Positions 6,091 to 57,303 of a DNA stretch of 64,000 nt are shown here, in pieces. Source of the stretch: Bacteroidales bacterium (GTDB lineage Bacteria > Bacteroidota > Bacteroidia > Bacteroidales > ML635J-15). A model generated the notes under the pieces. The model worked only from the letters and a program-made list of their open reading frames with translations. It was not told the DNA's origin and made no database searches. The stretch lies in NCBI GenBank assembly GCA_003249955.1, contig QKHS01000014.1, forward strand, positions 1 through 64,000. The letters run 5' to 3'. Both the position numbers and the translations under genes were made by a program. Each line of letters starts with the position of its first letter. Position 1 is the first letter of the stretch.

Positions 6091-6103
6091 CCTTACGTTT
6101 CTC

Positions 6104-6721: not shown

Positions 6722-7354
6722 ATGGAACAAATTGCAAAACACATCGCTGAAAAACTTTTACAAATTAAAGCAATTAAATTAGAGCCTGCAAATCATTTTA
6801 CATGGGCATCGGGATGGTTTTCACCAATTTATTGCGATAACAGAAAAACTTTGTCTTATCCTGAGGTAAGAACTTTTATAAAAGATTCTTTTGTAACAGT
6901 TATCAAGGAAAAGTTTGGTGATTTTGATGTTATTGCAGGTGTTGCAACAGGTGCAATTGCACAAGGAGCATTAGTAGCCGAAGCAATGAATAAACCATTT
7001 GTTTATGTTCGTTCTCAACCTAAAGAGCATGGTATGGGAAACCAGATTGAAGGCAAATTAGATCCAAACCAGAAAGTTCTCGTAATAGAAGATCTTATTT
7101 CTACAGGAGGCAGTAGTCTTAGCGCAGTAAATGCAATTCGTGAAGCTAATTGCGAAGTTGTTGGTATGGCAGCTATTTTTACATACAACTTCAAAAAATC
7201 AACTGACAGTTTTGAGGCTGCAAATGTTAAACTGGTTACTTTAAGTAATTATGAAGCTCTTATTGAACAGGCAATAGAAACCGGTTATGTTTCTGAATCT
7301 GATTTGAATCTTCTTAAAGAGTGGAGACTGGATCCGGGTAACTGGAAAAAATAA
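6722..7354 (+). CDS. pyrE: Orotate phosphoribosyltransferase
   Basis: 210 residues, the usual length. It converts orotate and PRPP to orotidine 5'-phosphate in de novo pyrimidine synthesis. Visible motifs: the substrate loop VRSQPKEHGMGNQIEG and the PRPP-binding motif VLVIEDLISTGGSS. The ATG at 6722 gives the normal N-terminus (MEQIAKHIAEKLLQIKAIKL); a longer reading to 6584 would overlap the divergent NUDIX gene for 46 codons and has no support. The downstream SRPBCC gene follows on the same strand after 118 bases. Confidence 0.95.
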   Translation: MEQIAKHIAEKLLQIKAIKLEPANHFTWASGWFSPIYCDNRKTLSYPEVRTFIKDSFVTVIKEKFGDFDVIAGVATGAIAQGALVAEAMNKPFVYVRSQPKEHGMGNQIEGKLDPNQKVLVIEDLISTGGSSLSAVNAIREANCEVVGMAAIFTYNFKKSTDSFEAANVKLVTLSNYEALIEQAIETGYVSESDLNLLKEWRLDPGNWKK

Positions 7355-7472
7355 TAGTACCGGTATAACCGGAAGAGTGGGGACGCTTCAGCCTGATTTA
7401 TGTTACCTGTAGTTTTGGTCATGAATAAAGTTGAAGCATGGAATGATATTCACTACTTTAGTCATTTAATTT

Positions 7473-7877
7473 ATGAAAGATCTTGAAGTAATAAGTAAAA
7501 CCGGAAAAATAAGTAATTCTGATGAAAGAGTTTTTAACTTTTTTTCAGACTTAAGAAATTTATCAAAACTTATTCCTCCTGATGTAAATGATTGGACTGC
7601 CACCGAAAGCAATTGTTCTTTTACAATAAAAGGACAGAGAATGTCTCTTGTTGTAATTGACAGAGATCCGTTTAAAACAATAAAAATAACCGGGGATGAC
7701 GGCTCTCCTTACAATTTTTTCCTGTGGATTCAGCTTAAAAGTTTGTCAGCTTATGAAACTGCGGTAAGGCTTGTTGTAAGAGCACAGCTAAATATGATAA
7801 TGCGTACTGCTGTTAAAAAACCTTTGCAACAGGGGCTTGACCAGTTGGTTGATTATATGAAAATGCTTCCTTACTGA
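7473..7877 (+). CDS. SRPBCC/START-like family protein
   Basis: A 134-residue protein with the pattern of the SRPBCC (Bet v 1-like) hydrophobic-pocket fold: an N-terminal strand ending in ERVFNFFSDLRNLSKLIP, alternating strands, and a long C-terminal helix KKPLQQGLDQLVDYMKML. Such proteins bind lipids or other hydrophobic ligands; the ligand here is unknown. It follows pyrE on the same strand. Its stop codon overlaps the convergent T9SS gene by seven bases (7871-7877), so no terminator fits between them. Confidence 0.75.
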   Translation: MKDLEVISKTGKISNSDERVFNFFSDLRNLSKLIPPDVNDWTATESNCSFTIKGQRMSLVVIDRDPFKTIKITGDDGSPYNFFLWIQLKSLSAYETAVRLVVRAQLNMIMRTAVKKPLQQGLDQLVDYMKMLPY

Positions 7878-8920
7878 TTCTTAATTATTTTCTTACTGTA
7901 AATTTTATCGTTTACCGATAATTTCAGAAAATACATTCCGGGTTTAAGAGCAGATTCAGCGGATTTAATGTTAAAATTATATTGTCCGGCTTTAAGACTT
8001 GTTTCGTCCAGAATGGTTTTAATTTTATTTCCGGCAACACCGTGCATTGACAGGCTTACCACAGCATCGTCAGTCAACATAAAGTTTATTTCTGAAGATT
8101 CGTTAAAAGGGGTCGGGAAAACATTGAAAGTTGCCAATTCAGCAGATCCTTCTGATTCGGGGGACATGACTTCTGCTGTTTCCGGCACAGCAAGAACCTT
8201 ACTGTTGATCCATGTTTCTTCAAAATTTTTAACATCTCCGTTACTGAAATGTTGCGAAGTAATAACTGCAGTAACAACAGGATATCTGTCTTCTGCAGAA
8301 TACCACATGTATTTGTATGAATCAACTATAACTTCCTGACAACGCGAAACCTGTACTGTAGATGAGGACTGACAAACTCTCAGAACATTTTTTTTAATAT
8401 TCCCGGGTAAAATCAAGACTCCGAAGGCATCTGCCTGTATTTTATAATTACCGTTAATCTCAACTTCGGAGTTCTTGATGTTTGTTGCAACAGCTTTTAA
8501 TGTCCCGGTAATTTCTGATGAATAACTGAACGGGTAAACCATTCTTTTCAGCGGTTCTTCGTAAACGATAAGAAAATCGTCATTTTTGAAACCTGTAAGT
8601 GAGTATGTTTTTTCGGTTACTTCGTGATAAAATAAATTACCGTTTTCATTAATAACAAATGTAGGTTCAATTAAAAGCATAGCTTTTTCGCCGGCATCAG
8701 GTTTCATCTGAACACTGTTTGTTGTTTTACCGGTAAAATTACATCCGGAAAAGTCCCATACAATATTTTTTCCTGATTCTCCCGGAGAAATAAAATCTAC
8801 AGAAAGGTATGAATTGAAATCACCAAGTACCGGAGCATGAGAAGAGTAATCAATAGTTACCTGCGAAAAAGAAAAAACTGAAATACTCAGAAAAGCAAAA
8901 AGGGAAATATATTTTTTCAT
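7871..8920 (-). CDS. T9SS-secreted protein with C-terminal sorting domain
   Basis: A 349-residue exported protein: signal peptide MKKYISLFAFLSISVFSFSQ, a body with no recognised catalytic motif, then a type A sorting domain (about 265-349) with FNVFPTPFNESSEINF, the repeated beta-strands, and the ending GMYFLKLSVNDKIYSKKIIK. The domain directs outer-membrane passage through the type IX system and is normally cleaved. The start at 8920 is preferred over 8939-8941: it begins the signal peptide directly, and a TAnnTTTG element at 8943-8950 would place the transcript start at or beyond the upstream ATG. Function of the mature part is unknown. Confidence 0.85.
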   Translation of the reverse strand: MKKYISLFAFLSISVFSFSQVTIDYSSHAPVLGDFNSYLSVDFISPGESGKNIVWDFSGCNFTGKTTNSVQMKPDAGEKAMLLIEPTFVINENGNLFYHEVTEKTYSLTGFKNDDFLIVYEEPLKRMVYPFSYSSEITGTLKAVATNIKNSEVEINGNYKIQADAFGVLILPGNIKKNVLRVCQSSSTVQVSRCQEVIVDSYKYMWYSAEDRYPVVTAVITSQHFSNGDVKNFEETWINSKVLAVPETAEVMSPESEGSAELATFNVFPTPFNESSEINFMLTDDAVVSLSMHGVAGNKIKTILDETSLKAGQYNFNIKSAESALKPGMYFLKLSVNDKIYSKKIIKNQ

Positions 8921-8942
8921 AAAAATCATAATTAGTTCCATG

Positions 8943-8950
8943 CAAATTTA
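8943..8950 (-). promoter_or_regulatory. -7 promoter element for the T9SS gene
   Basis: Reads TAAATTTG on the minus strand, an exact TAnnTTTG match, 22 bases before the chosen ATG at 8918-8920. Confidence 0.5.
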
Positions 8951-9033
8951 CAAAAAAAACAATTCAACGAAATGTCTCTTGAAAAACTTGCAGATTATGA
9001 TTTTTGCGGTTGAATAGTTCTATATCCGGAAGA

Positions 9034-10110
9034 TTACAGACTTTTTATTTTATCAATGAATCTGGTTTCCCAGTTTTTTACTGAGTATTTTTCTTCCACT
9101 GTTTTACGTCCGGCATTTCCGGTTTTAATTCTCAGTTCCTTGTTGTCAATAAGATTACACAAATACTCAAACCATTCATCCTCTGTATCTGCAAGAAATC
9201 CGTTTACTCCATGATTAATTATATCGGTATTTACTCCAACAGGAGACATTATGACCGGAATCTCCAGAGCCATGCACTGCAATCCCTTGAACCCGCACTT
9301 TCCACGGCTCCATTCATCATCAGGCAAAGGCATTATCCCGATATCAAATTCGCAAAGTTCGTATATTTCGTTGTCCTTATTCCATTCCACAAGCTTTACA
9401 TCAATATCCCGGTTCCACTCCGGTGAGTTTACAACAACTTTAAAGTAAATTCTTTCCCCGTATTTTTCTTTAAGCCTTTTTAATACAGGAATTGCAGTGT
9501 CATAATGTTTTAGTGTTGTTGTTGTTCCTGTCCAGCCTATGCAAATTCTCCCGTGATCTTTTTCTGTCACGGTTGGTTTATGATAATTTGTCTCTATTGT
9601 TGTCGGAAGAATAAAAACATTTTTGTTGTACTGTTTTGCATAGTCTGCCAGATATTGATTACCGACTGTAACAAGACTTGAGTATCGGCAAATATCTGCT
9701 GTCTTTTCAGTTTTTTTAAGCCATGCCAGATTTTGATTCCCTTCGCTTGTGTCGTTAAGCCATATTGAATCGTCAAAATCAAATATTACCGGCACTCCTG
9801 TTTTTGCAAAACGTTTTTCAAAATATGTTGTTCCAAGCATAAAAGCTTCGCGATAGATAAAAATTAAGTCGCAACTTCCGGCAGTTCTTAAATCGCGAAG
9901 ACGAAGAAAAAAACTTTTTATTACTATTTTTAATTTTGCCAAATAGTGTCCGTGAGAGTAAAACAGTTTATCTTCTTTTTCGCTGATAATATTTGAAAAA
10001 ATTATTTCATAACCGGCAGCCTCCAAAGCAGGAATAAAATGTTCAAAGCGAAACCTTTGTCCGGGTGAACGTCCTTTACGATGCTGCACTATAGCCAGAA
10101 GTTTTTTCAT
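9034..10110 (-). CDS. Glycosyltransferase, GT-B fold, family 4-like
   Basis: A 358-residue cytoplasmic glycosyltransferase. The N-terminal half has VPVIFDFDDSIW; the C-terminal half has the GT4 donor-binding pattern: IGWTGTTTTLKHY, CEFDIGIMPLPDDEWSRGKCGFK, and ALEIPVIMSPVG. It ends with the usual SVKNWETRFIDKI helix. Its ATG overlaps the stop of the upstream glycosyltransferase gene in an ATGA at 10107-10110, so the two are translated together. Donor and acceptor are not readable; envelope polysaccharide or glycoprotein glycan synthesis is the likely setting. Confidence 0.9.
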   Translation of the reverse strand: MKKLLAIVQHRKGRSPGQRFRFEHFIPALEAAGYEIIFSNIISEKEDKLFYSHGHYLAKLKIVIKSFFLRLRDLRTAGSCDLIFIYREAFMLGTTYFEKRFAKTGVPVIFDFDDSIWLNDTSEGNQNLAWLKKTEKTADICRYSSLVTVGNQYLADYAKQYNKNVFILPTTIETNYHKPTVTEKDHGRICIGWTGTTTTLKHYDTAIPVLKRLKEKYGERIYFKVVVNSPEWNRDIDVKLVEWNKDNEIYELCEFDIGIMPLPDDEWSRGKCGFKGLQCMALEIPVIMSPVGVNTDIINHGVNGFLADTEDEWFEYLCNLIDNKELRIKTGNAGRKTVEEKYSVKNWETRFIDKIKSL

Positions 10111-11342
10111 TTACCACTGAGAGTTTTATAAATTTTAAAATATCTTTCTGCGCCGGTTTGTAAAGAAAAAAGTTCTATGGCAACAGATCTTAAGTCCGCA
10201 GGATTTGTTTTAAGCAAACTGTCAATACTATCAACAGCTTTTTTAAATCCCGCTTCGTTCATAACATCAATCATTAATCCGAGATTGTTTTCTGGAACAA
10301 ACTTATCTATGTCACCTACATTTGAATTGCAGATTACAGGAATTCCCATTCCCAGCAGTTCTGCCAGTTTTGTAGGAGATGAGGCTTTTTTGGAGAATAC
10401 AGGTTTTATAAAAAAGATTGAAGCCTGAGACAATGAAATCAATCCGGGAACCTCTTCCCGGTTAGCCGGCCGGATTATAATATCATTTGTGTCTATCCCG
10501 TGCTTTTCTGCCAAAGCAGATAATTCCGAAGGATTATCTTTTGTAATAATCAGAAATTTTGCATTTTGCCGGTTTCTTTTCAGGATTTTAAAAAATATCA
10601 GCATTTCTTCCGGCATATACCAGGTGCCGACAGATCCAAGATAACTGAGAACAAAATCCGATTCGGATAATCCTGATTCTTTCCTTAACTTTTCAATATT
10701 ATCCTTATTGGATTTATTATAATCAAAGTGGGAAAGATCTGCACAACAGGGAATAACTTCAACAGGAATTTCGGGAAAGTTAAAGCTGTTATGAATTATT
10801 TCTTTTCCTGCATATGTAAGACTTACGGTATAGTCTGCCAATCTGAGAAAAGTTTTTTCTTTACGTTTAAAATAGCGATAAACCATTTTATAAACGGGAT
10901 TTGACTGAGGCCATAAATTGCCGTCAATGCGTTCATCGGCATAAAACCCGCGCATATCGAAGAGAAATTTTGTTCCGTATTTCTTTTTTAAAAATACTCC
11001 GGCAAAGGCTGAAATATATGAACGGCAATGAACAATGTCAAAATTAAACTGCTTATTAAGTTTGCCGGAATGTTTTTTTAATTTAAAAATATCTTTTACC
11101 GTTGATAAAACCGGTGGCTTCTTCGTGTAAAATACCGGATGCCATTTTATTCCGGCAGAAATCAGGATGTCTGATATATACTCTCTTCTTCGGGAAAACA
11201 CTTCTTTTTTCTCAGCAGATAAAATATGTACTTCTACATTTTGTTTAACCAATTCCGAAAGATAGGGGATGACCTGAGATTGTCCCAAAGGATCAGTCAT
11301 TCCATCGTAAGAAATATACAGAACTTTTATTGTTTCTAACAT
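10107..11342 (-). CDS. Glycosyltransferase family 4
   Basis: A 411-residue GT-B glycosyltransferase. It opens with MLETIKVLYISYDGMTDPLG and has the N-terminal domain segment FDIVHCRSYISAF, then YLGSVGTWYMPEEM at the domain hinge, and the donor-site region ASIFFIKPVFSKKASSPTKL with AELLGMGIPVICN. The start at 11342 begins the first Rossmann strand directly; the reading that extends to 11456 adds a hydrophobic stretch with no family match. First gene of a two-gene operon with the downstream transferase. Divergent from lspA. Confidence 0.9.
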   Translation of the reverse strand: MLETIKVLYISYDGMTDPLGQSQVIPYLSELVKQNVEVHILSAEKKEVFSRRREYISDILISAGIKWHPVFYTKKPPVLSTVKDIFKLKKHSGKLNKQFNFDIVHCRSYISAFAGVFLKKKYGTKFLFDMRGFYADERIDGNLWPQSNPVYKMVYRYFKRKEKTFLRLADYTVSLTYAGKEIIHNSFNFPEIPVEVIPCCADLSHFDYNKSNKDNIEKLRKESGLSESDFVLSYLGSVGTWYMPEEMLIFFKILKRNRQNAKFLIITKDNPSELSALAEKHGIDTNDIIIRPANREEVPGLISLSQASIFFIKPVFSKKASSPTKLAELLGMGIPVICNSNVGDIDKFVPENNLGLMIDVMNEAGFKKAVDSIDSLLKTNPADLRSVAIELFSLQTGAERYFKIYKTLSGK

Positions 11343-44987: not shown

Positions 44988-45101
44988 TTGCATTTTTGTA
45001 TTTTACAGTAATAAATGCACACAGATTATGTTTCTATTTACGGTAATATCTGTATTGAAGGAATATTAAATTCTGAAGTTTTGTTAAAATTTATATATAT
45101 A

Positions 45102-46526
45102 ATGAAGGCAATTTTAAGTGTATTATTGTTTTCTTTAATAACAATATCATCGTTTTCGCAAGTAATCGGTGGATCAGCTTATGAAAAAGCATTTGACCTG
45201 ATTTACGGAGATGATGAATGTCTTTATTTAACTGGTTTTACTTCTTCATACGGCAATGGAAGTCGTGATGGATTTATTGTAAAATACAATTGTGTTAACG
45301 GACTCTACTCTTACAATACATGGGGAAGAACTGACTATGACGAGTTCCGAAGTATTGTTAAAACAAATGATGGTTTTCTGCTTTCAGGCTTTTCATTCTG
45401 GAATGATGAATTATCCATTCAGGCAATAATGGTAAAAATAAATTCTCAGTTGAATATAGAATGGGCAAGAAATTTCGGAAACGGACAATTTCAACATGCA
45501 TATGCATGTCTGGAGTTGGCAGACGGGAGTTTAATAGCGGCAGGAGTTGACAGAAGTGTCGGTTATTATGGCCCATTTGTTATTAAGACAGACCCTAATG
45601 GAAATACAATATGGGAGAAGACTTATTCTGATTACCAACCTGTACATGTAACAGATATTTGCGAAAAACCGAACGGAAACATAATTTTGCTTTGTAATAA
45701 AGGAGGTTTTTTCAATCTTGGAACAAACTGGCATTCCTCTTTTAGCAGCAATGCCGACATCTTTTTTCTTGAGTTAAATTCAAATGGAGATGTCGTTACC
45801 GAAAAAACAATTGAAGCACCTCGCCATGATATTCCATCGAGCTTGATGGCTGACGGTAATGGGAACTACTATGTTCTTTCTCACTCCCAAAGCTATAGTA
45901 GTGGAAAGAGTTTTGACATTTGCCTGTTTTTTTTTAACAGTAGTTATGAATTACAATGGGTAAAAACTTTTGGGGGTGACGATTTTGAATATGCTGCTGA
46001 CTTCAAACGAGACTCTTATGGTAATATACATATTGTTGGAACATCTGCTAGTGAGAATGAAAATTATCCGGTTTTGTTTTATATTAAAACCGATGCCAAC
46101 GGGGAATTACTTGACAGTAGAAATTTAATTACAGAATACCGGTGTTACGGCGCATCTGTTGAAGTAGTCGGGGATAACATTTATCTGCTTGGAACAATTA
46201 CAAAAGACGGATCGGACAGTTTTGTACTCCTTGAAAACTTCAAGATTAACAATGAAACTGTATTTTTCCCGGTTGTCTATGCTTACCCTAATCCGGTTAT
46301 TGGAGAATGTAATATTTTTATTAATAACCCCAATCTACACACTGAAAATGTGAAAATTGAAATCATTAATTCAGCAGGGTCTGTTATTGATATATTATTT
46401 ACAGATTTAAGCCCACTCAATCCTGAATTGAAACTTGATTTCTCATCATATGATGCCGGTAATTATTTTGTAAAAATTAGCAATGACAAAGTTTATCAAA
46501 TAATACAGATAGTAGTTGTTAAATAA
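45102..46526 (+). CDS. T9SS-secreted beta-propeller-like protein
   Basis: 474 residues. A signal peptide MKAILSVLLFSLITISSFSQ, then about seven repeating units with the SBBP-like phrase (YLTGFTSSYGNGSRDGFIVK, LLSGFSFWNDELSIQAIMVK, IVGTSASENENYPVLFYIKT) ended by a T9SS sorting domain (VVYAYPNPVIGECNIFI to NYFVKISNDKVYQIIQIVVV). Such proteins are seen as surface or matrix proteins without a catalytic site. Start at 45102 begins the signal peptide; the 45015 reading adds 29 unrelated residues. It is followed seven bases later by the metallophosphoesterase gene; these probably form one transcript. Confidence 0.85.
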   Translation: MKAILSVLLFSLITISSFSQVIGGSAYEKAFDLIYGDDECLYLTGFTSSYGNGSRDGFIVKYNCVNGLYSYNTWGRTDYDEFRSIVKTNDGFLLSGFSFWNDELSIQAIMVKINSQLNIEWARNFGNGQFQHAYACLELADGSLIAAGVDRSVGYYGPFVIKTDPNGNTIWEKTYSDYQPVHVTDICEKPNGNIILLCNKGGFFNLGTNWHSSFSSNADIFFLELNSNGDVVTEKTIEAPRHDIPSSLMADGNGNYYVLSHSQSYSSGKSFDICLFFFNSSYELQWVKTFGGDDFEYAADFKRDSYGNIHIVGTSASENENYPVLFYIKTDANGELLDSRNLITEYRCYGASVEVVGDNIYLLGTITKDGSDSFVLLENFKINNETVFFPVVYAYPNPVIGECNIFINNPNLHTENVKIEIINSAGSVIDILFTDLSPLNPELKLDFSSYDAGNYFVKISNDKVYQIIQIVVVK

Positions 46527-46532
46527 AGGATT

Positions 46533-47837
46533 ATGAATATATCGAAAGTTTCTATATTGTTTTTTTTGTCATTGAACCTTGGTTCTTTTGCTCAGAAAGG
46601 ATATAATTATAAATATCTCTTTACTGCTCATACTTATATGGGGGAATCGACAATAGATACCAGGCTGGTTGAATTGGATAAATCGGGTTATGACAATATT
46701 TGGCTTGGCGGGGATATTTGTTCGGAGACTCTGATATCCAAGTCGAATATGGATTATCTTAACGAGCAGTTAAGAATTGGTGAACCTCACAATTATTTTA
46801 CCCTTGGGAATCATGACAGACGAAACGGAAATCTTGAGTATTTCGAGAAATTTATTGGTAAAAAATCCTATTATGCCGATTACTATAACGGAATAACGAC
46901 TATTGTATTAGATACAAACCTTGATCCTTCCGATTGTGAGAATCTGAATAATCAGTTCAAAATGATATGTAATGTTACAGATACGATCTCAAAATCATCC
47001 CACCTGATATTGCTTTTTCATTGGGGGTTATGGAGCGGAATCCCAGGATTGCCGGACCCAATTATTTATGCTCACACTAACCTGATATACTGGAATGCGA
47101 ATTGTGATTCAACCAATAATAATTTTTCACAAATGATTTATCCCCAACTCGTTGATGTTAAAAACAGGGGAGTGAAAGTAATATGCATTATGGGAGACAT
47201 GGGAGCATCATATAAAAAGGTTGATATGAGATCAGATGATGGTATTATTTTTCTTGGTTGCGGGCTTTATAACATAGTATATTCCGGTGATGAGGACGAG
47301 TGGCGGACAAAAGAAAAAGATGTTATTCTTGAGTTCAATCACAATGTTGCAAATAAATCGTTAACATGGAATTTCAGGGATCTTGATTCTATGATTAATG
47401 TTCAGCACGGATTTACGTACCTGACTAAATTGTCCTTTAATCAACCCGGTTTATTTCCTGCAGATAATCTTATTTATATTTCAAATGAGAATTATATGTA
47501 TAGTCTGAGTAATACAAATGAAGATATAATCATTTTAGATAGTTTGTTGCAAAATCTTCATGTCTCAAAAAACAAAGTGTTCTTCACCGGAGTTCTAAAA
47601 TCGTCCGTTATTGGTGGACAGATTAAAATAATATACAGACTAAAAAGTGAGTCAGATATTTTGGAAGAAAATGAAATTACAATCACTGATTTACAAAATA
47701 AATTAGTCTTTTATGAAAAAATATTGGAATTTGCAACTGACATTCAATCTGGATACAAGCTTGAAATACTAATAAAGAATACCGGGAACACTTCTGTTTT
47801 GTTAAACAATATTGAACTAAAATACATAATGCATTAA
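46533..47837 (+). CDS. Exported calcineurin-like metallophosphoesterase, atypical
   Basis: 434 residues: signal peptide (about 1-20), a metallophosphoesterase domain (about 25-260) and a C-terminal beta-sandwich (about 330-434). Visible motifs are WLGGDICSE, FTLGNHDRRNGN and ILLFHWGLWSG. The first motif, normally DxH, reads TAH, so a metal-ligand Asp is missing, and a GHxH box is not seen; CIMGDMGAS stands near its place. The enzyme may be inactive or use another metal site. No T9SS sorting domain. Start ATG is six bases after the T9SS gene stop. Convergent with the VTC operon. Confidence 0.8.
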   Translation: MNISKVSILFFLSLNLGSFAQKGYNYKYLFTAHTYMGESTIDTRLVELDKSGYDNIWLGGDICSETLISKSNMDYLNEQLRIGEPHNYFTLGNHDRRNGNLEYFEKFIGKKSYYADYYNGITTIVLDTNLDPSDCENLNNQFKMICNVTDTISKSSHLILLFHWGLWSGIPGLPDPIIYAHTNLIYWNANCDSTNNNFSQMIYPQLVDVKNRGVKVICIMGDMGASYKKVDMRSDDGIIFLGCGLYNIVYSGDEDEWRTKEKDVILEFNHNVANKSLTWNFRDLDSMINVQHGFTYLTKLSFNQPGLFPADNLIYISNENYMYSLSNTNEDIIILDSLLQNLHVSKNKVFFTGVLKSSVIGGQIKIIYRLKSESDILEENEITITDLQNKLVFYEKILEFATDIQSGYKLEILIKNTGNTSVLLNNIELKYIMH

Positions 47838-47893: not shown

Positions 47894-48604
47894 TTAAAGA
47901 CTTACTTCATAAAAAGCAGCAATTCCATCAACATATTTTGAATTCCGGGTCATGTAAAAAGGCATTGTATTTATGACTCCGGCTGCAGATTCATTATGTT
48001 CTTCATCATATTTAATTTCGACGACAATTTCAGAGTCCGTGAACGAATCATTGAACCGGTTATGTATTTCACCAAGCTTATAATATTCGATTTCAGAGTC
48101 AATAGTAAGTCTGAAATTCCCGCTTAAATCTCTGAAGTACTCTCTGCGGTATCTGTTCATCAGCTTAATTTCGAGGCCTGCAATTTCATCAAAAACAACT
48201 TGCGGAATATCTGATGAACGGAAAAGTTCCCGAAAATAAGAAGTAGAGATATTCTCATTTATTTCAAAATCAGGTAGAAAAAAAGATAATTTTGTTCCGC
48301 GATAAGCGTTTTTTATTTTTATCTCAAAAATTGCATCTGAAATTTTGCCTGTTTTTTCTCCATACCAGCGAATTCTGTATTTTTTTCTATCCGATTTTCC
48401 TCCGACATTATCATGAAAAGAATTCAGTTCAGGAGTATCAAGATAAATATTATTTACATATCGTGGCTTAAAAATATTACGAAAAAATGCAGCAGATGAC
48501 AATACAACATTTCTCGTTTGATGATAAGATAACGCAGATGGTTTGAACTTTCGTTCATACCTGAATGTCTCAAGTTTTGTATATTTTTTTTCTTTGTTTT
48601 CCAT
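47894..48604 (-). CDS. VTC-domain polyphosphate polymerase-like protein
   Basis: 236 residues. VTC domains line a tunnel with basic residues and polymerise inorganic polyphosphate from ATP; bacterial members are recognised by the same pattern. Visible: FRYERKFKPS at the start (the RxxRK-like strand), NNIYLDTPELNSFHDN, KKYRIRWYGEK, then AIFEIKIKNAYRG and VVEIKYDEE, which carry the Arg/Lys and Glu of the tunnel. No membrane segment. The start overlaps the DUF4956 stop by one base (48604). Last gene of the operon with DUF4956 and CotH-like protein. Confidence 0.9.
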   Translation of the reverse strand: MENKEKKYTKLETFRYERKFKPSALSYHQTRNVVLSSAAFFRNIFKPRYVNNIYLDTPELNSFHDNVGGKSDRKKYRIRWYGEKTGKISDAIFEIKIKNAYRGTKLSFFLPDFEINENISTSYFRELFRSSDIPQVVFDEIAGLEIKLMNRYRREYFRDLSGNFRLTIDSEIEYYKLGEIHNRFNDSFTDSEIVVEIKYDEEHNESAAGVINTMPFYMTRNSKYVDGIAAFYEVSL

Positions 48605-49275
48605 TATTGAATATCAACAAAAGAAACTGTTGAATTGTCTATTTTTAAAATATCATTTTTACAATCTGTAAGATTGTCGATGTTTTTTACTCTTACTCTA
48701 AAAGCAAGATCAAGGTTACTTTTGCTCTGGTCAAAACGGCGAAGAGCAGGTCTGCTGAATTTTGAACTTACAATATCAATGACTTTTTCCATATCGCCAT
48801 CTTTGGGGTTTTGCAAATTTACGATAAGATTATAAGCATTTAGCTTATTCATTGGTTTCACAAAATATCTTACCCAAACAACTGAAAGTAATATACTGAA
48901 AGCAATTACTGTAACTACAGGCTGATTTGCGCCCATCCCCAATCCTGTAGCAATAGCCAGAAATAAATATGTAAGTTCTTCCGGTTCTTTAATTGCCGCA
49001 CGATACCTGACAATTGACAAAGCACCGACCAAACCTAAAGACAGAGCAACAGAGCTACCAACCAGAGTAATTATAAGCATTGTGGTTAATGAAACCATAA
49101 TAAAATTATAAGAAAACTGGCTTTTATTTGACAAACTGTTTGCACAACGACGGTATGTTAATTCGAGAATAAGTGATAACAATATTGTCATTGCAGCATT
49201 GACAATAAACAATGTTATATCAATTTCCTGAGGAGCAAAATTAAAATACTGTAAAATCTTTTCGTAACTGTTCAT
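48604..49275 (-). CDS. DUF4956 membrane protein
   Basis: 223 residues. Four membrane helices in the first 150 residues (ITLFIVNAAMTILLSLIL, FIMVSLTTMLIITLVGSSVA, the segment with LGLVGALSIVRYRAAIKEPE, and VVTVIAFSILLSVVWVRYF) and a cytoplasmic end (about 158-223). The SIVRYRAAIKEPEELTYL stretch is the signature of this family, which has no defined biochemical role. It is repeatedly found next to VTC proteins, which points to a joint function in polyphosphate handling at the membrane. One-base overlap with VTC and 30 bases from the CotH gene. Confidence 0.9.
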   Translation of the reverse strand: MNSYEKILQYFNFAPQEIDITLFIVNAAMTILLSLILELTYRRCANSLSNKSQFSYNFIMVSLTTMLIITLVGSSVALSLGLVGALSIVRYRAAIKEPEELTYLFLAIATGLGMGANQPVVTVIAFSILLSVVWVRYFVKPMNKLNAYNLIVNLQNPKDGDMEKVIDIVSSKFSRPALRRFDQSKSNLDLAFRVRVKNIDNLTDCKNDILKIDNSTVSFVDIQ

Positions 49276-49305
49276 AATTCAAATTTTTATTTGCAAAAAT
49301 ATTAT

Positions 49306-52266
49306 TTATTGATAAAATATAGAGAATAATTTAGCTTTATTTCCATTAATGGTTTTGCCATTCAAAACCAATACAGAATTTCTTTCTATCAAGGTTTCTT
49401 CTATCACCTGATTAAATGTAACGTTTGTTGCGGTAACAGTTGCCGGCCCAAACTCTGGTTTTTTCTGTAACAAAACAAAACCATATTTTGCATTTGATAT
49501 TTTACAGTTATCAACTTTTGCATCTGACAAATCTTTTGCGGCAATTCCGATTACAACATTGTCAATAACGATATTGGATATAATTGCATGTGTATGTTCG
49601 CCCAAACTAACAGCTTTATCTCCTGCACCATTGATTGTGCAATTTAATATCTTTACTTCACTTGTAGAAAAGTCAATTCCATCATTTCCATTATTTATAA
49701 ACATGCAGTTATCCACCGTTCCTGTACAAAAATCAGAATCATGCGAATCACCGAATGTGTTTTTAATTAAACAATCTTTAACCAGAAACAGACATCTTAC
49801 AGTGTTAAGCATATCTTCACAATGATTGTTTGTAAATGATGTATTAAAAATATCGACTTTGCACTCATAGAAGGTAACTGCACCGGTTAAATGCCAACCT
49901 TTGTAGTCTATTGTATTCAAATTGTCAAACACAGCATTTTCAACTCTGCATTTTCCCGGAGCCTGCAAGACTGTAAATCCCATGCCGGTTTTGTCTGAGG
50001 AATAAATCTTTACCGGTTTTTCTTTAGTTCCGTTTATCTCTACCGTTGAACAACTTACAAAGGCAGCTTTTTGTGTAAGATTAAGATTTGTTCCGGGTTC
50101 AAAAACCACAGTAAATCCTGACGGAATATAAATGCTTTTTTTAAAAGTCATATTTCCGGTGAAAGTTATTTTTTTGCTGCCAATGTCTGTATATTTTGAA
50201 ATATCAGCAGAATTTTTGGCCATGTCTGTCCGGGGATTATATGTTGTTGGGGCAGGCCACCGGATAATTTCGACTTTAAAAACAGAATCAGTTTTTGGTA
50301 AACTGAAGTATAAATGTGTTGCATCATCAGGAATGCCGGGGATAGAAATTTCTTTAGACAGAACAGCTTTATTATCAGGCTTTTCAATCAGGATGTCCAG
50401 ATTTTTAGTTATCTCCTTATCGCTGCCGGCACCTTCTATTTGTATTCCTGTTGACAAGAAAATTTTAACCAAAAAAACTTCCGGCTTGTTTTTGTAAATT
50501 TTCACGTACTTATCGGCAAAAATGTTTTCGCTATAAATGTTCGAAGTGTTAAGAGGGACATTTGTTAAAGATCTAACACGGGCCATATACCCGGTATTTT
50601 TAAGGGAATCTATAAACTCCGGCAAAAACCTGCACACTTTATTTTTAATAGTAATAAATTGAATGGTGTCCAGCCGGTAAGGAGAAAATTCCTGCTTCAA
50701 TAAATTTTCATTTGAAACGTATTCCTCAAAAAATTTATTTTTAAAAAAACGATAATCTGCCATATCGGTATAATATCCCAGATATTTAAGATATTTATCT
50801 GTGAATACAGAATCGGTAGTTAAAAAATAGAAAGAATTATTTCTTTTATCATTAATGTTTAATTTTAACATTGGTGTAATTGGATTGTCCTGAGTAAATT
50901 CAGTAGGTCCTGAATAATTGTCAAATGCAATAGGCTCTAATCTGCACAAAACAGGGTTGTAATAAAATCTCATGTTGTGCCATTGTAATGAGTGAAAAGC
51001 ATTTTCCGCATTTGCCAAGGCTATAAATTTCGCAACTTTTTCAACATCAAAAATTTCTGAGGCAGGGGCTTCCATCTCCCGAAACATATTTAAAAGATTT
51101 GCCGCAAGTATAAAATAATTATATTGGGTTGAATCCGAAAACACCTTCTTTTCGCTAAAAGGTTCAATAACGCTGCTTTCATAAGAAAACTCACCAGGAA
51201 CATTATTAAGAATGAAATCCCAAAAGTCTGTTTCCGAAAACTTAATTATAGGGCCTTCCCGTCTCATACTGGACTCAATCAACTCTTTCTGAAAATGTTC
51301 TTCGTAGGAATACATCCCCAGAGATTGTCCGTTTAAGTAAACAGGCACATAATCATATCTGGTAGTTAATATATCCTGATCTTTACACATTTTATGGTAT
51401 AACCATTCATTGTTGAAACCACGTGCAAGAGGAGTCTGAATAGAAAAAACCCTCATCCCGTGCCAGGAATCATCTTCAAGCTTAATACGAAAAGACCATT
51501 TGGAACCTAAGAGATGATCAAGCCAATCTCCTTTAAGCCTAACCTGCGCGTGCATCATTTTGTTATCTCCGTAAATCAAAGCTTCAACATAACTATCATC
51601 TTCTGTTTGCAATATGCCCTGTTCCAAAGCTCGGGTTCTGATTTTTTCAAGCTTTTTCATTTCCGATTCCTCAATATAAAGTAACAATGGTTCTTTCTCT
51701 TTATAATTAGGATAATATGAACGATTTGAAATTTTTATGCTAATATCATCAAAAAAAGCGTTTTTATTATTTTTATTATAAAAATATATTTGAAGGGTAT
51801 CATTAAAATCTTCAGTAGTGGAGAATTTAAGTGTGATGTTCATCCATCCATTTTCAATGTCTTCAGACTTATTATCTGATATTTTATAAAAGTTTTTATC
51901 AATTTTTGCCTGAACAACAACAGAAGCATCAGATTCTTTACGCATTTTGAAATTGATAGTAATATACTTTTGGCCTTTTACGCCTGGAATAATAATTAAA
52001 TTCTGATATACTTTCCATGATGGAATTAACAAAGATTTTTTGCCTGAAAAAGATGTCGTATCTGTTATATTTGACGGCAAAAATTTGTAGTCAGGGTTAT
52101 CAGTAATGAAATTCCCATTTTCATCCTGTTCTTCAAAATCACAATATATCTCGCTGTTTTCCTCTTTGTTTTTATCCCGGGTTTGATTGCGATGCACAAA
52201 TAAAAAACCTACTACAAGACCAATAAGAAAAACGTATGTTGCAATTTCAATAATCCTTTTTTTCAT
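49306..52266 (-). CDS. CotH-like kinase fused to a right-handed beta-helix
   Basis: 986 residues. A membrane helix near the N-terminus (TYVFLIGLVVGFLFVH, about 10-25) anchors the protein outside the cytoplasm. Residues 40-185 look like a carbohydrate-binding-type beta-sandwich (YCDFEEQDENGNF). Residues about 240-540 match the CotH kinase: RLKGDWLDHL, YDYVPVYLNGQSLGMYSYEE, REGPIIKF, WHNMRFYYNP and IAFDNYSGP with D449. CotH proteins phosphorylate protein substrates in spore coats. Residues about 700-960 form a beta-helix (FTVVFEPGTNLNL, NGNDGIDFSTSEVKILNCTI). First gene of the operon leading to DUF4956 and VTC. Confidence 0.9.
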   Translation of the reverse strand: MKKRIIEIATYVFLIGLVVGFLFVHRNQTRDKNKEENSEIYCDFEEQDENGNFITDNPDYKFLPSNITDTTSFSGKKSLLIPSWKVYQNLIIIPGVKGQKYITINFKMRKESDASVVVQAKIDKNFYKISDNKSEDIENGWMNITLKFSTTEDFNDTLQIYFYNKNNKNAFFDDISIKISNRSYYPNYKEKEPLLLYIEESEMKKLEKIRTRALEQGILQTEDDSYVEALIYGDNKMMHAQVRLKGDWLDHLLGSKWSFRIKLEDDSWHGMRVFSIQTPLARGFNNEWLYHKMCKDQDILTTRYDYVPVYLNGQSLGMYSYEEHFQKELIESSMRREGPIIKFSETDFWDFILNNVPGEFSYESSVIEPFSEKKVFSDSTQYNYFILAANLLNMFREMEAPASEIFDVEKVAKFIALANAENAFHSLQWHNMRFYYNPVLCRLEPIAFDNYSGPTEFTQDNPITPMLKLNINDKRNNSFYFLTTDSVFTDKYLKYLGYYTDMADYRFFKNKFFEEYVSNENLLKQEFSPYRLDTIQFITIKNKVCRFLPEFIDSLKNTGYMARVRSLTNVPLNTSNIYSENIFADKYVKIYKNKPEVFLVKIFLSTGIQIEGAGSDKEITKNLDILIEKPDNKAVLSKEISIPGIPDDATHLYFSLPKTDSVFKVEIIRWPAPTTYNPRTDMAKNSADISKYTDIGSKKITFTGNMTFKKSIYIPSGFTVVFEPGTNLNLTQKAAFVSCSTVEINGTKEKPVKIYSSDKTGMGFTVLQAPGKCRVENAVFDNLNTIDYKGWHLTGAVTFYECKVDIFNTSFTNNHCEDMLNTVRCLFLVKDCLIKNTFGDSHDSDFCTGTVDNCMFINNGNDGIDFSTSEVKILNCTINGAGDKAVSLGEHTHAIISNIVIDNVVIGIAAKDLSDAKVDNCKISNAKYGFVLLQKKPEFGPATVTATNVTFNQVIEETLIERNSVLVLNGKTINGNKAKLFSIFYQ

Positions 52267-52383: not shown

Positions 52384-53544
52384 TTACAAAGGTCTTGCAT
52401 ATGCAATTACATCTTCCGCGTTAATGAGATTACCACATAATATGACCAATCTTTCAATAACATTACGGAACTCCCTTATATTGCCCGTCCAGTTAATTTT
52501 TTTCAATTCCTCAATTGCCCCTTCAGATATTTTCTTTAAAGGGACATTCTGTTCGGCACATGACAGTTCAATAAAATAATCTGCCAGAAGCGGAATATCG
52601 TCTTTCCTTGAGTTAAGTGAAGGAACATGAATCAAAATTACGCTAAGTCTGTGATACAGGTCTTCGCGAAAATTTGTTTTTTCAATTTCTGAACTTAGAT
52701 TTTTATTTGTTGCAGCAATAACTCTTACATTTACATCTATGTCTTTATCGCTGCCGACTCTTGTAATTTTATTTTCCTGTAATGCCCTTAATACTTTGGC
52801 CTGAGCAGACAAACTCATGTCTCCTATTTCATCAAGGAAAATTGTCCCTCCGTCAGCCTGCTCAAATTTACCTTTTCTTTGTTTTATTGCTGAAGTAAAA
52901 GCTCCTTTTTCATGTCCGAAAAGTTCTGATTCTATAAGTTCAGAAGGAATTGCGGCACAATTAACTTCAATAAAAGGAGCCTGAGCCCTGTTGCTTTTTT
53001 CATGTAACCAGCGGGCAACGACTTCTTTTCCGGTTCCGTTTTCACCTGTAATCAAGACTCTTGCATCGGTGGGGGCAACTCTCTCAATCATATCTTTTAC
53101 TTTTTGGATTGCTGCAGATTCCCCAATCATCTGATATTTCATGTTAACCTTCTTCTTTAAAGTTTTGGTTTCCATAATCAGATTTGACTTGTCAAGTGCA
53201 TTACGCAATGTAATCATGATCCTGTTCAGATCAAGTGGCTTCGGGATGAAATCAAAAGCTCCTTTCTTAATTGCTTCAACAGCAGTTTCAATATTACCGT
53301 GCCCCGAAATCATAACAACCGGAACTTCCGGAGCAGACTCATGAAGACTTTCAAGTACTTCTATTCCATCCATCTGCGGCATTTTTATATCACAGAAAAT
53401 TATATCGTAAGCATTGTCTGCGGCTAATTGTAAACCTGTTTTACCATCTTCGGCCAGATCGACATTGTGGTTTTCAAATGTAAGAATGTCTTTTAAAGTA
53501 TTGCGGATACTTCTTTCGTCGTCAATAATCAAAATTTTTGCCAT
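52384..53544 (-). CDS. NtrC-type response regulator lacking a DNA-binding domain
   Basis: 386 residues. The receiver has IIDDERSIRNTLKD, the phosphoacceptor Asp in IIFCDIKMPQMDG and the Lys in FIPKPLD. The AAA+ domain follows with Walker A (GENGTGKE), GHEKGAFTSA in place of GAFTGA, Walker B (GTIFLDEI) and sensor II (WTGNIREFRNVIERL). The protein ends in EDVIAYARPL with no Fis-type HTH. It can probably oligomerise and contact sigma-54 but needs another way to reach a promoter. No kinase is adjacent. Start at 53544 begins the receiver; the longer reading adds a hydrophobic stretch with no match. Confidence 0.9.
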   Translation of the reverse strand: MAKILIIDDERSIRNTLKDILTFENHNVDLAEDGKTGLQLAADNAYDIIFCDIKMPQMDGIEVLESLHESAPEVPVVMISGHGNIETAVEAIKKGAFDFIPKPLDLNRIMITLRNALDKSNLIMETKTLKKKVNMKYQMIGESAAIQKVKDMIERVAPTDARVLITGENGTGKEVVARWLHEKSNRAQAPFIEVNCAAIPSELIESELFGHEKGAFTSAIKQRKGKFEQADGGTIFLDEIGDMSLSAQAKVLRALQENKITRVGSDKDIDVNVRVIAATNKNLSSEIEKTNFREDLYHRLSVILIHVPSLNSRKDDIPLLADYFIELSCAEQNVPLKKISEGAIEELKKINWTGNIREFRNVIERLVILCGNLINAEDVIAYARPL

Positions 53545-53565
53545 GGCTATATGTTTTTCTTTTTG

Positions 53566-53573
53566 CAAAGATA
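53566..53573 (-). promoter_or_regulatory. -7 promoter element for the NtrC-type gene
   Basis: Reads TATCTTTG on the minus strand, an exact TAnnTTTG match, 21 bases before the ATG at 53544. It excludes the longer start at 53637. Confidence 0.6.
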
Positions 53574-53690
53574 AAAAAAGACCACAACCAATGTAAGTAA
53601 GTTTCAAAAAAATAATCAGACATGTAACAAGTTGCAACCTAACCGGAAAATAAATAGTTTTGTTTCAGATGGTAAAAAAAGTGACATAAG

Positions 53691-54489: not shown

Positions 54490-57303
54490 TTATTTTTCAG
54501 TAACAATAATTTTCTTTATTTCGTTAACCCCGTTTGTTTCAAGCCTGATAAAGTAGTTTCCTGCAGAAACAGCTCCCCCGTCCGAAGTTTTTGGTTCCCA
54601 TGTCAAAGTATGTTTCCCCGCATGTGTTTTACTATCGAATAACATGCAAATAACCTTACCGTTTATGTCCAGAACAGAAACCTTTGCCAGTCCGGGTTCT
54701 TTCACGTAAAATTCAATATTTGTAAAGTCTGAACATGGATTTGGATTTGCCCTTAAGATATCATTAGACTTGTTTTCAATAATATTTACAGTATTCTCTT
54801 CAACATTAATGTAAAGGTCTTTTAGTTCAACGCCGTTTTCGGTAGTAAGTTTTACTGTATAGAATCCAGGGAAATTATAAGTGAATTGTGGGTCCTGTTC
54901 ATTACTGTCTGCCGACCCGTCATTGTTAAAGTCCCAGCTCCATGTGTCTGGTTCTGGATATGATAAATCCGTAAATGAAATATTAAGTGGTGCTGTCCCC
55001 TGGGTAAGGTTTGCAGCAAATTCGGTGTAAGCACTCATATTTTCATTAACGGTAAATATTTGCTCATCAGACCATTCACTCCATTTTTGATTAAAATCAC
55101 GGTACGCTACTCTCCATGCATATTGATTCCCGTTAATGAGAGGAGTGCTTACCTGCATTCTACGTAAGTCAATACCTGCATTTAAATCTGTCGGGATATA
55201 ATCAGGAGCACCACTATCTCCGTAAATATTTACCCAATCCTGTCTTTTTTCAAAAACCGGAGTTGTAAAGTCTCCCGGAGTTGCGGTTATTTCAAATTTA
55301 CTACTCATAAGGCTGTCAACTCCTTCAAATGGTGTAGCAACCAACAAAGGTAAAAGCCCAGTCTCTGCAACAGGAGACATTGCAACCGGCTTAACAGGAG
55401 CAGTCTGGTTCAGTTTACGGTAGTAATAATCCACTAATTCGCTGTTCAAGGGATTATCTGTATTTCCCAGTGAAAATGTAAAAAGCTCAAAACTTTGATT
55501 TTGCAAATCAATATCGACAATGTTGTACAAGTAGTGGTCCAGAGCTATCATAATTTCATCATAGTCTTCCTGATTGGGATACATACCCCATCTGTCAAGA
55601 GCAGAACCACCACCTCCGGTAAGCATAACATAAAAATCACCATTTGTGTTTTGAACCATAGATTCTATTGTTCCACGCTCATAATTATGAGAATGTCCGT
55701 ATGCCAAAAGCTGTACTTTATCAAATTCCTGTAAAACAGGTATTATATCGTCCTGTATATATGGGGTATTTCCATCAGGCCATATTTCACTGTGTCCGGG
55801 CTGATGAGTAAAACAAAAGACCATATTTACATCAGGATTGGCTTCTGATTGGGAAAGTTTATTTTCGAGCCAGTTTGTCTGAATGCTGTTAGAATAGGTC
55901 CCGTTGCCGTTTATAAAAATAAATTGAGTATTTAAATAATAAAAATTATAGAATTTTTCCTCAAGCGGGAATGTATAGTCACTAAAATCCTCATATTTCA
56001 TATAATTGTAAAAATTCAAAGATTCATTTTCATGGTTTCCTATGATTACCATAAAAGGCAAATTCGCAGATAATCCGGCAAATGGCCTGAAATATTCATT
56101 TTCATAAAGGTCTATTGTACTTCCGCTTGAAACAATATCTCCAACATGTACTACAAGGTTAATGTTTTCCTGAATAGGAGGCCCGTACATTTCTATTGCC
56201 TTGTCCCGTGCAGCATTTGCGATTTGTGTTGTTCGTGTTATATCAGTTCTGCTGTCCCCAAGAAGAATAAATCTTAAATGCTGTGATTCCTGCACAGTGG
56301 CAGATGGTGTTTTAAAGCAATAAATATCTGATTCTTCTGTGCCGCTTGTACATTTGTAAAAGTATTCAGTGTCCGGGCTTAATCCGCTTAATTTTACCGT
56401 ATGCCATTTTTTCCCGCTGATGTCTTCTGATGAACCGGTTTGTGTCAGGTCTAAAGATTCCGTTGTCCCGTAATCTACACTTGTTGAGCTTGTTTGGACG
56501 GAATGCCATGAAATATAGATGCTGTTTGGTGTAGGAGTCTGTAAATATGGTAAAATTCCTACAAGTACGGGATCAATAATGTGGCCATATCCTCCCAGAG
56601 TGTTTACTTCCGTCTGGGTTAAAGGATGGTCAAAAACAGCAGCCAGAGCAATGTCAATTTCATTATCTTCGCCATCGTTATCGGCAAAAAAATGAACAAG
56701 ATTCGATCCGGTTGAAGGATATAAACTATAATCACCGTCAACAGATAAAGATCCTCCGGCAAGAACAAGAGCTCCGTCAAGATATACCCTGTAATAATTC
56801 CCCAAATCAACGGAAACAACCATGCGATACCACTCGTCTGCATTAATTGTATAAGCAGAATATCCCGGACCTGAAGTTGATCTTCCTATTTGACCGGACG
56901 TATTAATAAATAACTCTCCGTCGTTACTGTTTCCTGAGTTTGCCTGATAAAAACAATGCCAGACAGAAGTATTTGAAATTTTAAAATCATAAATAAAGCT
57001 ATACTCATTAACTTCGGTCCCTCCCCCGTTTCCGGCTATGTCATGATTGCAGGTGTAATAACTTCCCGTTCCTATCCGGACTGCATTGTCAGAAACATCA
57101 GGTCCGCTTACCTGAGAAGCTGAACCTGTCAAAATCAGATTATTCCCGATTACAGATTCTGCGAGATTGCCTGCATTTTCAAATTCCCATAACCCGACAA
57201 TGCTGGGATGCTCTCCGGGGATTATCTGAGGAGCCTGGGCGTTTGCAACAATACTTGTGAAAAAAACGCTGATAATAGCTAAAAGCAAATAATTACGTAT
57301 CAT
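54490..57303 (-). CDS. T9SS-secreted LamG / purple acid phosphatase-like protein
   Basis: 937 residues. Signal peptide (about 1-22), a LamG-type domain (about 30-240; ESVIGNNLILTGSA to FDHPLTQTEVNTLGGYG), an Fn3-like N-terminal domain of purple acid phosphatases (YISWHSVQTSSTSVDYG), and the metallophosphoesterase core with LLGDSRTD, VVHVGDIVSSG, IIGNHENES, CFTHQPGHSE and LAYGHSHNYERG. A PKD domain (about 790-850; YPEPDTWSWDFNNDGSADSN) and a T9SS sorting domain follow (NPNPCSDFTNIEFYV). All metal motifs are present, so this enzyme is probably active outside the cell on phosphate esters. Confidence 0.9.
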   Translation of the reverse strand: MIRNYLLLAIISVFFTSIVANAQAPQIIPGEHPSIVGLWEFENAGNLAESVIGNNLILTGSASQVSGPDVSDNAVRIGTGSYYTCNHDIAGNGGGTEVNEYSFIYDFKISNTSVWHCFYQANSGNSNDGELFINTSGQIGRSTSGPGYSAYTINADEWYRMVVSVDLGNYYRVYLDGALVLAGGSLSVDGDYSLYPSTGSNLVHFFADNDGEDNEIDIALAAVFDHPLTQTEVNTLGGYGHIIDPVLVGILPYLQTPTPNSIYISWHSVQTSSTSVDYGTTESLDLTQTGSSEDISGKKWHTVKLSGLSPDTEYFYKCTSGTEESDIYCFKTPSATVQESQHLRFILLGDSRTDITRTTQIANAARDKAIEMYGPPIQENINLVVHVGDIVSSGSTIDLYENEYFRPFAGLSANLPFMVIIGNHENESLNFYNYMKYEDFSDYTFPLEEKFYNFYYLNTQFIFINGNGTYSNSIQTNWLENKLSQSEANPDVNMVFCFTHQPGHSEIWPDGNTPYIQDDIIPVLQEFDKVQLLAYGHSHNYERGTIESMVQNTNGDFYVMLTGGGGSALDRWGMYPNQEDYDEIMIALDHYLYNIVDIDLQNQSFELFTFSLGNTDNPLNSELVDYYYRKLNQTAPVKPVAMSPVAETGLLPLLVATPFEGVDSLMSSKFEITATPGDFTTPVFEKRQDWVNIYGDSGAPDYIPTDLNAGIDLRRMQVSTPLINGNQYAWRVAYRDFNQKWSEWSDEQIFTVNENMSAYTEFAANLTQGTAPLNISFTDLSYPEPDTWSWDFNNDGSADSNEQDPQFTYNFPGFYTVKLTTENGVELKDLYINVEENTVNIIENKSNDILRANPNPCSDFTNIEFYVKEPGLAKVSVLDINGKVICMLFDSKTHAGKHTLTWEPKTSDGGAVSAGNYFIRLETNGVNEIKKIIVTEK

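Follow-up and report, generated by a model that had tools for sequence, protein, structure and literature searches.

Gene Trio in the Window

We analyzed a 64-kb stretch of a Bacteroidales genome (positions 1 to 64,000 of contig QKHS01000014.1, hereafter the window) in which three genes on the minus strand encode a CotH-fold protein, a DUF4956 membrane protein, and a VTC-domain protein (Table 1). A preliminary description had read the three as one operon, and the open reading frames (ORFs) bear out the trio, its order and strand, the 30-base gap between the CotH-fold and DUF4956 genes, and the one-base overlap between the DUF4956 and VTC genes. We find that the trio is real and widespread, with linkage far above chance, and that VTC-DUF4956 pairs carry alternative envelope partners, either an HlyD-like adaptor or a DUF2490 protein, an arrangement that is new here. 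Publications are cited by PubMed Central (PMC) accession, from the passages of them available to us.

The trio was also thought to be served by one promoter, marked by a -7 element. The element TATATTTG is indeed present at 52349-52342 on the minus strand, but across the window TANNTTTG was counted 101 times versus 97 times expected from shuffling, a chance frequency at which we rejected it as promoter evidence.

Table 1. Features of the window around the CotH-fold, DUF4956, and VTC genes
Feature	Position	Strand	Evidence
VTC-domain protein (polyphosphate-polymerase-like, triphosphate tunnel metalloenzyme [TTM] fold), 236 amino acids	47894..48604	-	Pfam PF09359, PDB profile, invariant positions
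DUF4956 membrane protein, 223 amino acids	48604..49275	-	Pfam PF16316, AlphaFold2, MgtC relation
Codons R90-Y91-R92 of DUF4956, arginine pair near membrane-helix end	49000..49008	-	Alignment
CotH-fold protein, 986 amino acids: N-terminal membrane anchor, CBM22-like, kinase-like, C-terminal beta-helix	49306..52266	-	
CotH kinase-like domain, residues about 194-570	50557..51687	-	AlphaFold2 secondary structure; profile alignment to 5JD9 residues 24-354
His425 codon near site of CotH catalytic Asp	50992..50994	-	Alignment of 47 relatives
C-terminal parallel beta-helix, residues about 699-974	49345..50172	-	Pfam Beta_helix; Foldseek
Sigma-54-type response regulator, just upstream of trio	52384..53637	-	Pfam; BLAST cluster of 10 ORFs in 9/81 loci
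Putative metallophosphoesterase, signal-peptide-like start, convergent to trio	46533..47837	+	Metallophos 19.7 bits, below 21.5 cut-off

VTC and DUF4956 Proteins

The window VTC protein scored 79.7 bits against the Pfam profile PF09359 (cut-off 23). A profile of 56 VTC relatives (alignment A3, made of 55 of the 71 suitable-length ORFs plus the window protein) matched the yeast Vtc2/Vtc4 structures among PDB sequences, the best matches being VTC subunits. R77 and R79 of the window protein align with R264 and R266 of Vtc4, and K19 with K200, which we take to be the number of that Vtc4 tunnel residue; these positions were hand-counted from chain ranges, and the equivalent of E426 falls outside the alignment. 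R77, R79, and K19 are all invariant (56/56), and of the tabulated charged positions 17 of 18 are invariant in all 56 relatives with the remaining one always Lys or Arg, so that the tunnel residues named in the preliminary description are kept. The C-terminal SKY of the window protein resembles the SKF of Vtc4 in a weak second profile match. Changes at R264/R266/E426 have been used to inactivate yeast VTC, a complex in which basic residues line the channel (PMC9911596). An apparent VTC fusion at locus L168 was rejected, the 778-amino-acid frame being merely long and G+C rich; separate frames at this locus encode an adaptor-like protein (5212-6345), DUF4956 (7138-7818), and CotH (7826-10162; CotH by Pfam).

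DUF4956 was recognized by PF16316 at 55 bits (cut-off 30.6), and its AlphaFold2 model (mean predicted local distance difference test [pLDDT] 80.6, predicted template modeling score [pTM] 0.56) comprises a helical membrane part (residues 20-139) followed by a C-terminal alpha-beta, ACT-like domain (146-221), a tail that among PDB structures matches ACT domains most closely (best E=1.5e-3). Searching 80 genomes with the MgtC profile PF02308 returned four DUF4956 places with E from 4e-5 to 9e-4, all scoring under the MgtC cut-off. Comparison of profiles with hhalign gave E=4.4e-6 and a probability of 87% for a broad DUF4956 set against MgtC, with seven membrane decoys at E of at least 0.14; the window subfamily alone gave a weaker match (E=7e-4, probability 26%), and a first, shallow MgtC set stayed below significance (E=0.12). 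We therefore read DUF4956, from fold and profiles together, as a relative of MgtC whose tail is ACT-like. The arginines R90 and R92 were kept in 99/99 aligned proteins, 14 of these from loci without VTC. The preliminary description had left DUF4956 without an assigned function, which is partly overtaken by a 2025 paper that reads the counterpart in Pel loci as MgtC plus ACT (PMC12345266).

CotH-Fold Protein

No match to CotH was returned for the window protein by hmmscan at E<=0.1; with the PF08757 profile in a whole-genome search it scored 30.5 bits against a cut-off of 23.8. An alignment of 47 relatives (A2, consisting of 46 of 48 ORFs of 800-1200 amino acids plus the window protein) found CotH 5JD9 among PDB sequences at E=1.2e-8, and the AlphaFold2 model (mean pLDDT 90.2, pTM 0.85) had CotH 5JD9/5JDA as its best PDB matches in Foldseek, at E of about 3e-9 (2.7e-9 for 5JD9). 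The protein begins with an N-terminal helix and continues in the model with a jelly-roll-like domain, for which the best match is CBM22 (E=6e-4) with binding-component and meprin domains at similar E. The beta-helix of the preliminary description was recovered by Pfam (Beta_helix, 39.9 bits against a cut-off of 25.9); its best fold matches are GH87 glucanases, with E from 1.3e-5 and TM-scores below 0.3.

The CotH protein had been described as a secreted protein kinase, of which the fold stood and the catalytic residue did not. In the column of the catalytic Asp (425), 46 of 47 relatives have His and one has Glu; column 426 is Gly, Ser, or Ala in 43/47, and the residues tabulated for these two columns include no Asp. 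The second Asp, at column 449, is D in 41/47 (including the window protein) and E in 6/47, and Asn431 is kept in 44/47. This column pairing rests on the profile alignment and on residue numbering, in that we placed the catalytic D228 on the DG of 5JD9 from the D228/D251 spacing and took D251 to be the second metal-binding Asp of CotH. D228 is the catalytic Asp of Bacillus subtilis CotH, and a D228Q variant is described as inactive (PMC7821199). Because the window protein lacks the catalytic Asp, secreted protein kinase activity cannot be assumed for it.

Co-occurrence across Genomes

We surveyed 198 sampled genomes of the Bacteroidota phylum and 14 named control genomes, using raw counts that ignore kinship throughout. 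DUF4956 was present in 59 of the 198 genomes, VTC in 37, and CotH in 81, and their presence is nested: all 37 VTC genomes also carry DUF4956 (hypergeometric p=5e-25) and, somewhere, CotH (37/37, p=8e-18), while 55 of the 59 DUF4956 genomes carry CotH (p=6e-24). Co-occurrence is thus nonrandom. Same-strand DUF4956 lies near 42 of 43 VTC places, at 40 of them within 411 bases (measured between profile matches) and at two about 2.8 kb off; at the 43rd place the VTC match is partial, and its contig carries no DUF4956. The adjacency expected from the preliminary description therefore held for VTC and DUF4956; for CotH it was far looser, a Pfam-confirmed member lying within 3 kb in 11/40 VTC loci. 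In the genome of the window, each of the three families has exactly two matches, and all of these fall within two trios, the second of which (contig C87) is ordered CotH, two small genes, VTC, DUF4956, DUF2490 and includes a strong Pfam match to CotH (137.5 bits). Among the 14 control genomes, the same three match both DUF4956 and VTC, and CotH matches occur in two of these and in B. subtilis.

Further comparisons drew on 81 loci, namely the window and the best 80 of 359 by similarity to the window DUF4956, a sample that is biased for this reason; the DUF4956 alignment (A1) comprised 79 of the best 80 plus the window, and apart from the window proteins the sequences of A2 and A3 were drawn from the same 80. 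VTC was found in 76 of the 81 and a full-length relative (800-1200 amino acids, custom profile) of the window CotH-fold protein in 46, and besides Bacteroidota the record titles name Verrucomicrobia, Planctomycetota, Calditrichaeota, KSB1, and others. Cluster counts given below for these loci are single-linkage BLAST clusters on mechanical ORFs, of which few members were tested with Pfam, and contig ends cut some loci. A CotH label for proteins at L104, L153, L157, L160, L161, and L164 was refuted by Pfam: these are other secreted proteins sharing the tail domains, three of the six being alpha-amylases.

The trio itself, and the reading of DUF4956 as MgtC plus ACT, is already in print for Gram-positive Pel loci. 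In streptococci and clostridia, genes for CotH, polyphosphate polymerase, DUF4956, and DUF4832 lie beside pelDEADAFG, with a similar set in bifidobacteria (PMC7112168), and in Streptococcus intermedius SIR_1592 is an MgtC membrane domain with ACT, SIR_1593 a polyphosphate polymerase, and SIR_1594 a CotH protein with FN3 (PMC12345266); from the two reports together we infer that SIR_1592 is a DUF4956 member. According to the available passages of the 2025 mBio paper, its authors failed to find the arrangement outside Pel loci (PMC12345266). Contrary to that statement, the trio does occur outside them, because no PelG (PF16933) match was found in the window genome, where PelG was the one pel family searched for, and VTC was absent from the three sampled genomes that scored above the PelG cut-off (0/3).

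Envelope Partners and Phosphate Enzymes

Partners were counted in 56 fetched loci. Of the 43 VTC places, the window and the partial place were set aside, and the 41 others were fetched and 40 counted; we also fetched 19 of the 23 DUF4956 places that have no VTC nearby, with L089, L090, L092, and L093 standing outside the main partner count. The 16 loci counted as lacking VTC are the other 15 and L172, which does carry VTC, hidden by an ORF-overlap filter that also hid the adaptor-like, DUF4956, and CotH frames of L168.

An HlyD-like adaptor lies within 400 bases on the same strand in 21/40 VTC loci and a DUF2490 gene in 12/40, never both (0/40), such that an adjacent adaptor or DUF2490 gene marks 33/40, and 35/40 have at least one partner once CotH within 3 kb is included. 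The mutual exclusion of adaptor and DUF2490 (Fisher p=9e-6) is largely a clade difference, with DUF2490 loci mostly from the class of the window and adaptor loci mostly from other classes. Among 32 adaptor sequences (alignment A4, 32 of 34 adaptor ORFs, two L153 fragments having been dropped), Pfam recognized HlyD_3 in 20 and HlyD_D23 in 18, the L104 adaptor matching neither, and it confirmed DUF2490 in 11/11 tested of the 12. In the open-license PMC literature we found no description that pairs DUF4956 with HlyD-like proteins; BT3498-99 of Bacteroides thetaiotaomicron VPI-5482, where a VTC neighbor would be expected, are listed as DUF4956 and DUF2490 (PMC10434189).

Two further arrangements were seen around the adaptors. 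At 11 of the 56 loci (L095-L101, L106, L190-L192), a cassette without VTC consists of DUF4956, an HlyD-like adaptor, and a secreted-looking protein of 410 amino acids, for which the candidate assignment as TolC was supported by neither Pfam nor a PDB-sequence profile. Most of the 12 fetched DUF4956 loci that have an adaptor but no VTC nearby carry this cassette. Upstream of the adaptor, VTC, and DUF4956 genes, L157, L160, and L161 each encode a secreted alpha-amylase that carries starch-binding modules.

At loci like that of the window, enzymes of phosphate metabolism that begin with export-type sequences recur nearby. An inorganic pyrophosphatase cluster occurs in 8/81 loci, and in 6 of these a trio gene lies no more than 110 bases away; PF00719 was matched by five of five members tested, and a simple lipobox pattern was present in 5 of the 8 ORFs, one of which is a fragment. 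Pyrophosphatases with lipoprotein-like or hydrophobic starts stand by the trio at L010 (4413-5042), L078 (7295-7897), L077 (3973-4578), and L009 (1354-2073). A metallophosphoesterase cluster that includes the window gene occurs in 28/81 loci, and the two other members tested, L041 and L035, both pass the cut-off. MBOAT and ALGX, which are linked to polysaccharide acetylation, form clusters in 9/81 and 7/81 loci, respectively (one member each tested), and a plasmid of Pseudobutyrivibrio carries CotH, polyphosphate polymerase, and DUF4956 inside an exopolysaccharide locus (L122, 5497-8636).

Beyond the trio, the gene before the metallophosphoesterase-like gene of the window (45015-46526) has Por secretion tail and weak beta-propeller matches and belongs to a cluster found in 12/81 loci, and on the other side a large secreted-looking protein (54490-57303) appears by eye metallophosphoesterase-like in its middle.

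Proposed Mechanism and Alternatives

We tentatively propose, with somewhat less than even confidence, that polyphosphate synthesis by VTC is coupled to passage through the inner membrane by DUF4956 and then to use or forwarding by an envelope partner. Our data show directly the gene order, the families and folds, the conserved residues, and the linkage across genomes; polymerase activity, translocation, the glycan substrate, and the use of exported phosphate are inferred. VTC and DUF4956 would form one unit. On the inner face of that membrane, VTC may build polyphosphate from ATP, and the MgtC-like DUF4956, in which two arginines close to where a membrane helix ends are invariant, would pull the anionic chain across, synthesis and translocation being coupled in the manner of yeast VTC. 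Beyond the membrane, one of several interchangeable partners would take over: an HlyD-like adaptor, a DUF2490 protein, or, for the window trio, the anchored CotH-fold protein, which might phosphorylate or otherwise modify a polysaccharide using the exported phosphate. A polysaccharide is the candidate substrate because of the CBM22-like and beta-helix parts; the CBM22-like and GH87-like parts, the Pseudobutyrivibrio exopolysaccharide locus, and the MBOAT and ALGX clusters together suggest a link to glycans. The role of membrane link given to DUF4956 in the preliminary description fits both its MgtC-like membrane part and the envelope partners.

To our knowledge, ATP is absent outside the cell, and it is an open question by what route bacterial polyphosphate reaches the outside and which phosphate donor serves enzymes beyond the cytoplasm. 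With VTC, DUF4956, and CotH nested in their presence across this phylum and the HlyD-like or DUF2490 partners swappable, the export model becomes directly testable, and the MgtC-like family acquires a candidate role in transport within a defined gene neighborhood. In its widest form, which we consider doubtful, the proposal would make VTC-DUF4956 a polyphosphate-producing machine of bacteria in general, one that feeds its product across the inner membrane and works with exchangeable envelope partners (an HlyD-like adaptor, a DUF2490 protein, or a glycan-directed CotH-fold enzyme that uses His in place of the catalytic Asp); the exported polyphosphate would supply phosphate for chemistry outside the cell.

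Several observations weigh against this proposal. DUF4956 has no VTC nearby at 23 of 65 places, and at 12 of the 19 of these that were fetched it stands beside the same kind of adaptor, so the cargo of DUF4956 need not be polyphosphate; at least three loci (L089, L090, and L093) showed by eye neither VTC nor adaptor. No HlyD-like or DUF2490 gene was found adjoining the window trio, whose neighbors are the regulator and the metallophosphoesterase-like gene, and no outer-membrane-efflux match was found for the 410-amino-acid protein of the VTC-less cassette (Pfam on two members; PDB sequences with a profile of nine). The adjacency of CotH is looser than that of DUF4956, which slightly lowers our confidence in the full model, and in the control Bacteroides ihuae, which has VTC and DUF4956, no CotH profile match was found. 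The window CotH-fold lineage, as aligned, lacks the catalytic Asp, and kinase activity is doubtful. We know of no work that establishes MgtC as a channel, and the DUF4956 model is of only medium confidence at pTM 0.56. In the yeast complex, activity rose when basic channel residues of Vtc1 were removed and fell for Vtc3 or Vtc4 (PMC9911596), and the available passages on S. intermedius report effects only for deletions of the DUF4956-like and CotH genes, none on Pel or aggregation being reported for SIR_1593, the VTC gene (PMC12345266).

The S. intermedius deletions bear on a different reading, in which the trio is an accessory cassette for exopolysaccharides, CotH-fold protein and DUF4956 tuning polysaccharide synthesis, anchoring, or modification with polyphosphate in a minor or regulatory part. 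Deletion of SIR_1592 raised Pel and deletion of SIR_1594 lowered it, both reducing aggregation (PMC12345266), and because the VTC gene alone is without a reported effect in the available text, these deletions favor such a cassette, as do the placement of the trio in Pel loci of streptococci, clostridia, and bifidobacteria, the carbohydrate-type domains, and the plasmid locus of Pseudobutyrivibrio. Yet the window genome has no PelG match and the three PelG genomes no VTC, and VTC never occurred without DUF4956 and CotH in the 198 genomes, which would be unexpected of a dispensable part, albeit with B. ihuae as a control lacking CotH; on balance we think the cassette reading unlikely. It is also rather improbable, in our estimate, that the genes form a unit of regulation and storage in which VTC polyphosphate stays cytoplasmic, the ACT-like domain of DUF4956 senses or adjusts ATP or phosphate, and the CotH-fold protein works apart from them as an envelope enzyme that shares their control. 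The ACT-like tail and the scarcity of CotH near VTC agree with regulation, and for Salmonella MgtC both inhibition of ATP synthase and an effect on phosphate metabolism have been reported (cited in PMC12345266), but the adaptors or DUF2490 genes adjacent to VTC at most loci, and the pyrophosphatases with lipobox-like starts, suggest work outside the cytoplasm.

Two other explanations concern the VTC protein and the linkage as such. The triphosphate tunnel fold is common to phosphatases and cyclases, and we found no report of activity for these bacterial VTC-like proteins in the open-license PMC literature, so that a different tunnel enzyme (e.g., a polyphosphatase or nucleotide triphosphatase) rather than a polymerase might be encoded; with VTC subunits as the best PDB sequence matches, an invariant polymerase-type arginine pair, and a C-terminal SKY like the SKF of Vtc4, we judge this very unlikely. 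That unrelated neighbors were co-inherited neutrally or by chance is hardly credible: three patchy families may travel together, and our counts ignore kinship, but DUF4956 accompanies VTC at all places except one, presence is nested, gene orders differ while partners alternate, and the raw counts already speak against it.

Comparison with Known Systems

The window trio can be set beside five described systems. Like the Pel accessory genes SIR_1592-1594, it brings together DUF4956 (MgtC plus ACT there), a polyphosphate polymerase, and CotH, whereas its CotH part has no catalytic Asp and, in place of FN3, carries CBM22-like and beta-helix domains, in a genome without a PelG match. With the eukaryotic VTC complex (Vtc1/3/4; PMC9911596) it shares a tunnel domain with the same key Arg and Lys residues and a membrane partner with basic residues; the window VTC, however, has no SPX match in Pfam, its partner is MgtC-like, and the location is a bacterial envelope. 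The NELoc-2 locus of Clostridium perfringens likewise unites two VTC genes, CotH, and a glycosyltransferase, in a Gram-positive setting with surrounding deacetylase, HEAT-repeat, and sigma-factor genes (PMC2879425, PMC11677781), and its membrane proteins of 226 and 222 amino acids beside VTC, named "tubulin/FtsZ," may be DUF4956. MgtC/SapB (PF02308) resembles the window DUF4956 at the profile level across both the membrane part and the tail, but the window protein belongs to another subfamily (DUF4956, PF16316), and the four hits all fell under the MgtC cut-off. Finally, the Bacillus spore-coat kinase CotH (5JD9/5JDA) has in common with the window protein the kinase-like fold, D or E at 449, and Asn431 (44/47), while the window lineage has His425 for the catalytic Asp and adds a membrane anchor and carbohydrate-type domains.

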